Shown here piece after piece: positions 8,349 to 10,566 of a stretch of DNA of 29,056 nucleotides (position 1 is its first letter; each line of letters begins with the position of its first letter). Origin of the DNA: a virus; IMG/VR virus record IMGVR_UViG_3300048837_000646, positions 1 through 29,056 of that record. One strand, written 5' to 3'. The notes under the pieces were generated by a model. That model did no database searches and was not told the DNA's origin. It saw only the letters and a program-made list of their open reading frames with translations. Both the position numbers and the translations under genes were made by a program.

Positions 8349-8906
8349 ATGGCCGTATCCAAGCGCATCCGATTCGAAGTCCTCCGCCGCGACGGGCACG
8401 CCTGCCGCTACTGCGGCGGGAAGGCGCCAGACGTGCGACTCACCGTCGACCACGTGATGCCCGTCGCGTTGGGCGGCTCCGACGACCCGACCAACCTGGT
8501 CGCGGCCTGCGCCGACTGCAACTCCGGCAAGGCCTCGGTGGCGCCTGACGCCGAGGTCGTCGCCGACGTGGCCGAGGATGCGCTGCGCTGGACGCTGGCC
8601 ATGGAGGCTGCCCAGGAGCAGCTGCTCGCGAAGATGCGTGAGGACCACGCCGTGGTCGGCACCTTCCTCGATGTCTGGGAGAAGCACGGCGGATTCAACC
8701 TCCCCAGCGACTTCGCCGAGCGCGTCATCGGCTACTACCGTGCCGGCCTCCCCGAAGAGGTCATCAAGGACGCTGCCTTCATCGCCACGGGCGCACGTCA
8801 CGTCACCTACCGGGCCCGCTTCGGCTACTTCTGCGGGATCTGCCGCAACCGGCTCAAGGACCTGCGCGAGACGGCGGCCTCGATCGCATCCGAGGTGGAG
8901 GTCTGA
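8349..8906 (+). CDS. HNH endonuclease, 185 aa
   Basis: The HNH fold is clear: Cys19/Cys22 (CRYC), the catalytic DHVMPVALGG with Asp34-His35, Asn49 in DPTNLV, and Cys54/Cys57 (CADC) closing the zinc site. Residues 60-185 add a helical extension with a second CGIC pair (162-165). HNH enzymes nick or cut DNA. Roles in phages include packaging, homing and host-DNA attack. This one lies between the methyltransferase block and the replication pair rather than beside the terminase, so a role in replication or as a selfish element is possible. The C-terminal extension is not a domain I recognise. Confidence 0.88.
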   Translation: MAVSKRIRFEVLRRDGHACRYCGGKAPDVRLTVDHVMPVALGGSDDPTNLVAACADCNSGKASVAPDAEVVADVAEDALRWTLAMEAAQEQLLAKMREDHAVVGTFLDVWEKHGGFNLPSDFAERVIGYYRAGLPEEVIKDAAFIATGARHVTYRARFGYFCGICRNRLKDLRETAASIASEVEV

Positions 8907-9259
8907 TGGCCCGCGTCGCGACGCGCATCTACGTCCCGCTGGACGTGAACTTCTTCGACGACGCGAAGATCGTCGAGGCCGGTGAGGCTGCTGGATGGCT
9001 GTACCTCAACATGTGCGCCAAGGCCAAGCAGCTCGATGAGGACGGCGTCATGACGCGCAGCCAGGTCGAGCGCCTGGGCGTCCGCGGGTGGCAGAAGCGG
9101 CTCGCCCGCCTCATCGAGGTCGGCGCCGTCGAGGAAGCCGGGGCAGGAATCTACGGCATCGTCGGCTGGCTCAACTGGAACGAGTCGAAGCAGGCCAGGG
9201 CTGAGCGACTGAAGGCTGACCGCGCCCGGAAGGGCAAGTCGAATGGGGCTGGAAAGTGA
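8906..9259 (+). CDS. replication-initiation-like winged-helix protein, 117 aa
   Basis: ATG 8906 overlaps the HNH stop by one base. The N-terminal pattern RIYVPLDVNFFDDAKIVEAGEAAGWLYL resembles the DNA-binding domain of phage replication initiators, which usually begin with a statement of this kind and a winged helix (SQVERLGVRGWQKRLARLIEVGAVEEAG). It ends in a basic tail (ADRARKGKSNGAGK). In related proteins, as I recall them, this domain is followed in the same polypeptide by a linker and a C-terminal domain. Here the frame stops and the next gene starts in the -1 frame within GTGA. The iteron cluster lies just downstream, which fits an origin-binding role like that of lambda O. Confidence 0.7.
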   Translation: MARVATRIYVPLDVNFFDDAKIVEAGEAAGWLYLNMCAKAKQLDEDGVMTRSQVERLGVRGWQKRLARLIEVGAVEEAGAGIYGIVGWLNWNESKQARAERLKADRARKGKSNGAGK

Positions 9260-9744
9260 GCGCCATTCCAGACGGATTCCAGGCGGAATCCGCTCGGATT
9301 CCGGTACACGTTCCGCAGGATTCCGCGTTCAATACAGCAAGCAAGAACAGGGAATCCCGGGACTTGGGCAGTTCTACGCAAGTCCGTAGCGGCCGGCCTG
9401 GGCTACGAGCCATCCGATCCGAGGACGTGCTGGCGGCCACCGTCGTCGCCCTCATCGCCCTGCGGCCCGACTGGCGCCCCGACGTCCTCGACGACGTGCT
9501 CAGCAAGGACCCTCGGCCGTGGCGCACCGTCATCGCCGCCGCGCTCACCTGCGCCCTCGACGGCCAGGCGCACCCCGGCCTGATCGCCAGCACCGGGCCG
9601 CGGTGGTTCACCGGCGAGTACGCCCCGACGCCGACCCCGCCGGCGATCGCCGATTACCGCCGCGCCGCGCGCTGCGCCCACGGCGAGATCGAGGGCCAGT
9701 GCGCCCTGTGTCGCCGCCGCATCCCAGCCGAGGAGTCCGCGTGA
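9256..9744 (+). CDS. replication-associated protein, 162 aa, carrying the putative origin
   Basis: GTG 9256 overlaps the previous stop (GTGA). The first 50 residues (IPDGFQAESARIPVHVPQDS...) are low in structure and encode the iteron DNA. Residues 55-110 form a helical domain (EDVLAATVVALIALRPDW, RPWRTVIAAALTCALDG), and the C-terminus has CAHGEIEGQCALCRR, a possible zinc knuckle. The first part reads like the linker that would join it to the preceding winged-helix protein. The two genes may be a split initiator, or may be joined by frameshifting at the A-AAG just before the stop. A role in replication is inferred from context. Confidence 0.65.
   Translation: MSAIPDGFQAESARIPVHVPQDSAFNTASKNRESRDLGSSTQVRSGRPGLRAIRSEDVLAATVVALIALRPDWRPDVLDDVLSKDPRPWRTVIAAALTCALDGQAHPGLIASTGPRWFTGEYAPTPTPPAIADYRRAARCAHGEIEGQCALCRRRIPAEESA
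9263..9358 (+). repeat. phased GGATTCC/GGAATCC iterons, candidate replication origin
   Basis: Five exact 7-base sites (GGATTCC or its complement GGAATCC) start at 9274, 9285, 9296, 9318 and 9351. The offsets are 0, 11, 22, 44 and 77, all multiples of 11. A degenerate sixth, CCATTCC, begins at 9263 on the same grid. Eleven is not a multiple of three, so codon structure does not explain the phasing. One site per helical turn on one face is how initiators bind origins. The last site is the palindrome GGGAATCCC. The stretch at about 9325-9350 is locally AT-richer. Lambda's origin lies inside its O gene in the same way. Confidence 0.7.
9360..9385 (+). repeat. small inverted repeat next to the iterons
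   Basis: GGACTTG (9360-9366) and CAAGTCC (9379-9385) form a perfect 7-base inverted repeat around a 12-base loop, directly after the last iteron. It may be part of the origin (a binding site or strand-opening element) or chance. Support is limited to its position. Confidence 0.35.
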
Positions 9745-10462: not shown

Positions 10463-10500
10463 CTTGACGATGTCGGAGGCTCTTGACATCCTGGAGGCTA
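10463..10500 (+). repeat. tandem CTTGAC...GGAGGCT repeat
   Basis: Two adjacent units each start CTTGAC and end GGAGGCT, with 6 and 5 different bases in between (10463-10481 and 10482-10499). They lie in a non-coding gap just upstream of the hairpin terminator. TTGACG and TTGACA in the units look like -35 boxes, but no good -10 lies 16-18 bases downstream. An operator or an upstream part of a late control region is possible. Confidence 0.5.
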
Positions 10501-10521
10501 CTTTCCCTCCCGTGTCGAAAG

Positions 10522-10543
10522 AGCCCCGCCAGAGCGCGGGGCT
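10522..10543 (+). terminator. hairpin terminator at the early/late junction
   Basis: AGCCCCGC and GCGGGGCT form a perfect 8-base stem with a six-base loop (CAGAGC). It is preceded by AAAG and followed by TTCGC rather than a long T run. It lies in the gap between the last replication-region gene and the next small gene, where read-through from early genes would be checked. GC-rich actinobacterial terminators often lack a U tract. Confidence 0.65.
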
Positions 10544-10566
10544 TCGCTGTGTCCGGGGGTGATCCG

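Follow-up and report, generated by a model that had tools for sequence, protein, structure and literature searches.

An 11-bp-phased GGAWTCC array next to a winged-helix initiator gene, a probable phage replication origin

The closest worked-out mechanism is that of the RepA_N plasmids, in which an N-terminal winged helix binds Rep boxes that lie midway along the rep gene, the origin-encoded linker can be dispensed with and a separate C-terminal domain contacts the host primase (PMC5703833). In lambda (O and ori-lambda) and SPP1 (gp38 and oriL), the repeats are likewise located inside the initiator gene, beside a strand-opening region (PMC7466680; PMC6316719). Among the lactococcal phages, Rep2009 and TP901-1 ORF13 each bind a repeat-rich part of the gene that encodes them, which serves as the origin, according to the introduction of one paper (PMC8965321), and orf16 of Tuc2009, the gene of Rep2009, is annotated as 'Rep; contains origin of replication'. 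Genes annotated as 'RepA-like replication initiator' or 'replication initiation protein' are also present in the actinophages Appa (Microbacterium), GMA1 and Ribeye (Gordonia) and prophi62-3 (M. abscessus), and no published binding data for these initiators were found. Moreover, Wetzel et al. reported no repeated motifs beside the repA genes of mycobacteriophages (PMC7157519), although the RepA of Miko may be of another family. The original prediction for the locus described here was a likely new phage origin; what we found is new for this phage group, while the kind of origin is one already known.

The stretch of DNA analysed (the window) is a virus record of 29,056 bases (IMGVR_UViG_3300048837_000646), which may be incomplete. 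The heptamer GGATTCC/GGAATCC occurs in it exactly five times, starting at 9274, 9285, 9296, 9318 and 9351 as the original prediction had listed, and nowhere else, so it is not equally frequent in the rest of the window. The start-to-start spacings are 11, 11, 22 and 33, all of them multiples of 11 as had been noticed, and the five sites fall within 84 bp. The number of sites alone is ordinary (shuffled sequences gave a mean of 2.4, and at least five were reached in 10 of 100 shuffles), but the clustering is far from ordinary: about 1.5e-10 such clusters are expected under a first-order Markov model and, given a cluster, all four spacings are multiples of 11 with a chance of about 7e-5, both values being prior to correction for the possible words (roughly 1e4). 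Written in rows of 11, the DNA reads CCATTCC, GGATTCC, GGAATCC, GGATTCC, a half site shifted by one base, GGATTCC and then TCAATACAGCAAGCAAGAACAG. The first of these, CCATTCC at 9263, is the degenerate copy that had been placed on the 11-bp grid, and the shifted half site (cacGTTCC) is at 9307. From these rows and the comparison with the nearest relative, L002, the core of the array is 9263-9328, about six units of 11 bp, and includes the exact sites GGATTCC (9274-9280), GGAATCC (9285-9291), GGATTCC (9296-9302) and GGATTCC (9318-9324). Because the heptamers are near-perfect palindromes on an 11-bp lattice, heptamers and spacers would both contain dyads. The fifth exact site, GGAATCC at 9351-9357, is on the grid as well; since it follows the A-rich tract and is missing from the corresponding place in L002, L296 and L299, it may be incidental and is probably no part of the origin. 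No strand is assigned to the array, the sites or the tract.

Directly behind the core, the A-rich short-repeat tract TCAATACAGCAAGCAAGAACAG (9329-9350), delimited by base composition and by comparison with relatives, is the proposed opening or helicase-loading element. It has A or T at 13 of 22 bases, whereas the genome is about 71% GC; an AT-richer flank had been noticed here in the original prediction. The small inverted repeat predicted with it fared less well: the arms (9360-9371/9374-9385) are 83% complementary, a counterpart was not seen in the L002 sequence, and the repeat is probably outside the origin proper. Composition and cumulative GC skew, which had been proposed as a check, did not change direction clearly around 9.3 kb within the 29-kb fragment.

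The array is preceded by an ORF of 117 aa on the plus strand (8906-9259), assigned by PHROG and AlphaFold2 as a winged-helix replication initiator and proposed as the iteron-binding protein, which agrees with the initiator-like gene recognised there from the sequence. Over its N-terminal domain the product matches PHROG 3926 (E 1.7e-11) and PHROG 2447 (E 1.4e-8), both 'replication initiation protein', and its AlphaFold2 model, from an alignment of 40 sequences, has a winged-helix arrangement with a pLDDT of 90.6. The best structural matches to RepA initiators are 4pt7_B (Z 7.0), 5kbj_C (Z 6.9) and 4pta (Z 6.8); winged helices of ORC/Cdc6 and of repressors match likewise at Z about 7, so the structural matches show the fold and not the family. 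Foldseek gave no match to the model at E <= 0.001, and a profile search against solved structures found no sequence relative of the initiator in the PDB. In addition, Phage_rep_org_N (PF09681) stayed below the cut-off for the window protein (13.3 vs 23.3 bits) and was matched weakly by 8 of 40 relatives (best E 0.0058), RepA_N (PF06970) had no match among the same 40, and searches of annotated phage proteins with the two proteins of the window returned nothing. The family may resemble the RepA_N proteins of pSK41 and pTZ2162 in its winged-helix N-terminal domain, with structural matches that are weak and no better than those to unrelated winged helices, and differs from them in having no Pfam RepA_N match and no sequence match in the PDB; the RepA_N iterons are also of another size and have a poly-A centre (PMC7145576). 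The likeness to lambda O that had been pointed out holds for the layout, a probable origin in or at the initiator gene, and not for the protein: the window initiator has no O-like PHROG match, O itself is unmatched by the family profile (E 0.38, four-sequence search), and the lambda iterons are 18 bp long at steps of about 20-24.

Between the end of the winged-helix domain and the first exact site there are about 38 bp, and the ORF stops 7 residues past the domain, which means that, unlike the proteins of PHROG 3926 and 2447, the initiator is not a single protein with a C-terminal half. The array is located outside the initiator ORF, within the N-terminus of a second plus-strand ORF (9256-9744), whose GTG start overlaps the initiator stop. 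This overlapping start is kept in L002 (as ATG) and L296 (as GTG). The second ORF has no family match and is proposed to be the detached C-terminal half of the initiator; the best reading of the arrangement is that the initiator gene has been split at the origin in this window. In most relatives the two halves are one protein, with a linker encoded by the putative origin DNA. Directly upstream there is a gene for an HNH endonuclease (8349-8906, plus strand; PF14279/PF01844, PHROG 14314), and the upstream genes also encode a DNA methyltransferase and a RecT-like protein, while terminase and portal genes are located downstream. Phages of this kind usually have their replication, terminase and structural genes in that order. 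Among the scanned proteins of the window, which is a fragment, neither a DnaB helicase nor a loader was recognised. A GC-rich inverted repeat (agagccccgc...gcggggct) that looks like a terminator is present at 10483-10550, before HNH and terminase genes.

The comparison with L002, whose initiator is 66-68% identical to that of the window, shows what is conserved in the array. The same six units are kept and the arrays are 82% identical, compared with 31-59% for the flanks (31% right after the tract and about 50% over the remaining second ORF). The two arrays differ at 12 bases, all of them in the spacers or in the central A/T of the heptamer and none at a conserved heptamer base (Fisher p 1.8e-5), and they affect codon positions 1 and 2 as often as position 3. 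The array is also present in L296, L297, L298, L299 and L300. Three units of 11 bp, where they are read, encode a recognisable repeat of 11 residues, so it could be supposed that the peptide ESxRNPxGIRx is what is selected and that the phasing of the DNA is its by-product. This is extremely improbable, since among 48 non-redundant arrays the sites start about equally in the three frames of the initiator (85/73/71) and 11 arrays are located past the initiator stop codon; besides the codon-position counts just given, no ORF of at least 90 aa starting near the domain end covers the array in L298 or L299. A tblastn search with the 39-aa peptide encoded by the iterons gave nothing useful. Judging from the spared heptamer bases, the use of all three frames and the 11 arrays beyond the initiator stop, selection acts on the DNA, as the original prediction had it, and the relatives change the amino acids while they keep the 11-bp phasing, the reverse of the pattern that would have spoken against that prediction.

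A pattern scan of IMG/VR (three GGAWTCC, gaps 2-6) returned 110 stretches, which fall by spacing into classes of 12, 9, 10 and 11 bp. Arrays at multiples of 12 bp, such as those of L005, L009, L012, L023 and L056, often occur in viral contigs of lower GC; with steps that are multiples of three, this class probably consists of codon-phased protein repeats. In all, 43 of the 47 viral 11-bp arrays, a number that includes a few near-duplicate contigs, adjoin a homologous initiator domain as found with a profile of the window family, and two of the other four (L070 and L108) are near the end of their locus. This bears on the possibility that the sites serve another protein of the host or the phage (a partition centromere, a nucleoid protein or a repressor) and adjoin the initiator by chance. 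Similar arrays of GGATTCC/TCGA/GGAATCC do exist in Nocardia chromosomes away from the initiator, and such repeats dominated the genome-wide pattern search. However, the Nocardia repeats are palindromes containing CTCGAG, with no initiator, and from one initiator relative to another the iteron words change but the step of 11 bp persists; together with the linkage in the viral contigs, this makes the possibility a quite improbable one. The palindromic repeats GGATTCCTCGAGGAATCC that fit the 11-bp pattern in Nocardia (L118, L127, L133, L145, L169, L117 and others) are a separate host repeat, away from the initiator. Furthermore, L155, L161 and L193 (Candidatus Competibacter) and L176 (Spirabiliibacterium, around 7595) have 4-14 copies of GGAWTCC, mostly at 11-bp steps, and an initiator domain is absent within 1.5 kb of these arrays.

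Relatives of the window initiator are present in hundreds of sequenced actinobacteriophages. As the full-family alignments A1 and A2 were too diverse for fetching relatives, four alignments of closer subfamilies were used, and viral contigs gave 129 non-redundant loci; the seeds came from array-bearing phages, so the close relatives in this sample are biased, unlike the remote majority. Over the first 120 bp past the domain, direct or inverted hexamer repeats peak at a lag of 11 in every group, harmonics appear at 22 and 33, and the peak persists in the 94 loci that have one GGAWTCC or none. One hexamer occurring at least three times in one phase was found for modulus 11 in 32 of the 129 loci, followed by modulus 10 with 9 (moduli 7-17), and phased hexamers were found in none of the control DNA 400 bp downstream. 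Of the palindromic classes made of two bases on each side of a three-base centre, GGNNNCC occurs at least three times in a row at step 11 in 27 of 129 loci, whereas the remaining steps between 8 and 15 yield one locus at most and the controls none; its centres at step 11 are mostly ATT/AAT, then CAA and TTG. These counts indicate that the iteron word drifts (GGAWTCC, GGCAACC, GGTTGCC, GGAACC, CACCAG, AGCAAA) and the 11-bp step stays. Exceptions include prophi62-3 and B3, with 12-bp or other spacing, and no repeats were found in the mycobacteriophages Toto and Winky, which match at the protein level. The actinophage genes named at the outset (Appa, GMA1/Ribeye and prophi62-3) have a homologous N-terminal domain and, like the window, a linker region with palindromic repeats followed by a short tract, in their case of CCCGT/CCCGA or AGAAC, and lambda P-like or DnaB-like genes are among their neighbours. 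Unlike in the window, their iterons are other words (for example GTCACGTGAC), the steps are not always 11 bp and the gene is unsplit in most of them.

A low-complexity tract of short repeats also recurs behind the array in the relatives, and in all groups complexity falls just past the array, about 70-160 bp after the domain. The repeat differs by group: AAGCA/AAGTA/GAAGT in the subfamily of the window, CCCGTACCCGTA or CCCAACCC in the A4 group, GGTTAGGTTAGG or AGTATAGATAAG in the DnaD-like group and CCCGT/CCCGA in phages of Gordonia, Microbacterium and Arthrobacter. These tracts hold the position of the AT-rich opening region in lambda and SPP1 (PMC7466680, PMC6316719), and as a lead only they can be compared with DnaA-trios or with the recognition element of B. 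subtilis DnaD (PMC10201434).

The same layout is found in the P335 phages Tuc2009 and r1t of lactococci, whose replisome organisers have the origin in their own gene and an N-terminal domain of the same profile family (E about 1e-10 for both in a four-sequence search; 1.7e-7 and 1.7e-4 in an earlier profile iteration). The relation between the DnaD-like group (Tuc2009) and the window group is significant but distant (hhalign probability 77%, E 1.9e-5). As in the window, the iterons stand at exact 11-bp steps and are followed by a short-repeat tract: the linker DNA of Tuc2009 contains four CAACCA and then a tract of the GGATAGGATAGG type, and ORF11 of r1t contains four GGAACC and then a tract of GATAAGAATAGATTA repeats. 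The differences are that the word is CAACCA or GGAACC and not GGAWTCC, that the gene is uninterrupted and DnaD-like overall, and that in r1t a DnaC-like loader follows the initiator. The rep gene of TP901-1 was also considered as one of this type and rejected; its repeats are spaced by 15 bp and it has no family match, hence it is another type of initiator.

Winged helices are common in repressors too, phased sites would suit a repressor as well, and the second ORF begins within the region of the array. The array could be an autoregulatory operator through which the winged-helix protein controls the transcription or coupled translation of 9256-9744 and the downstream genes, with replication starting elsewhere. 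We regard this as unlikely, because in most relatives the array lies within the initiator ORF or in the space behind it and not at a promoter, because a tandem-repeat tract follows it as in known origins, and because the protein family is one of replication initiators; operator and origin roles can coexist. Considering that the window holds no other copies, the phasing, the conservation at the DNA level, the linkage to the initiator family and the lactococcal layout, we think it very probable that 9263-9350 is the replication origin or a main part of it, that its GGAWTCC sites are bound by the 8906-9259 product and that the initiator gene is split at this origin.

Under the origin reading, the 8906-9259 product would bind the GGAWTCC sites through its winged helix and, as the sites are 11 bp apart, the bound subunits would all come to lie on the same side of the double helix and oligomerise along the array. 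Degenerate units often retain one half (GGAA or TTCC), which suggests that each half site is recognised by a single winged helix, with the domains stacked along that side of the DNA. The oligomer would then strain and open the adjoining A-rich tract of short repeats. A helicase loader and a helicase, of the phage or the host, would be recruited there, and the 9256-9744 product as the C-terminal partner may recruit them. All of these steps, from binding through opening to loading, are deduced from sequence, and so is the part played by the second ORF. For the wider family, we put at even chances the assumption that a large part of the phage initiators with a winged helix, from the RepA-like ones of actinobacterial phages to the DnaD-like ones of firmicute phages, read one origin code, palindromic GG-N3-CC on an 11-bp lattice and then a short tandem-repeat opening tract, in which the three central bases set the specificity for each phage and the origin is located inside the gene, after it or at its split. 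A GG-N3-CC/11-bp rule common to these phage groups is possibly new. Such a rule, with steps of 11 bp and then a short-repeat tract behind a winged helix, predicts origins and initiator specificity from sequence and could be used for the design of actinobacterial plasmid vectors, and the split-gene cases would be a natural separation of DNA binding from recruitment, both of which are proposed functions.

Two Propionibacterium phages have an initiator ORF that ends early, Doucette (L198, 2501-2923 and following) and B3 (L390, 1492-1857), with a simple tract between it and the gene that follows, an arrangement that looks like a split at the origin; the gap of B3 also holds repeats at 12-bp steps. 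In addition, the A4 relatives L242, L244 and L246 have ATAGCAAACCG-like units past the initiator domain, a quite different word, and many of these units stand at 11-bp steps.
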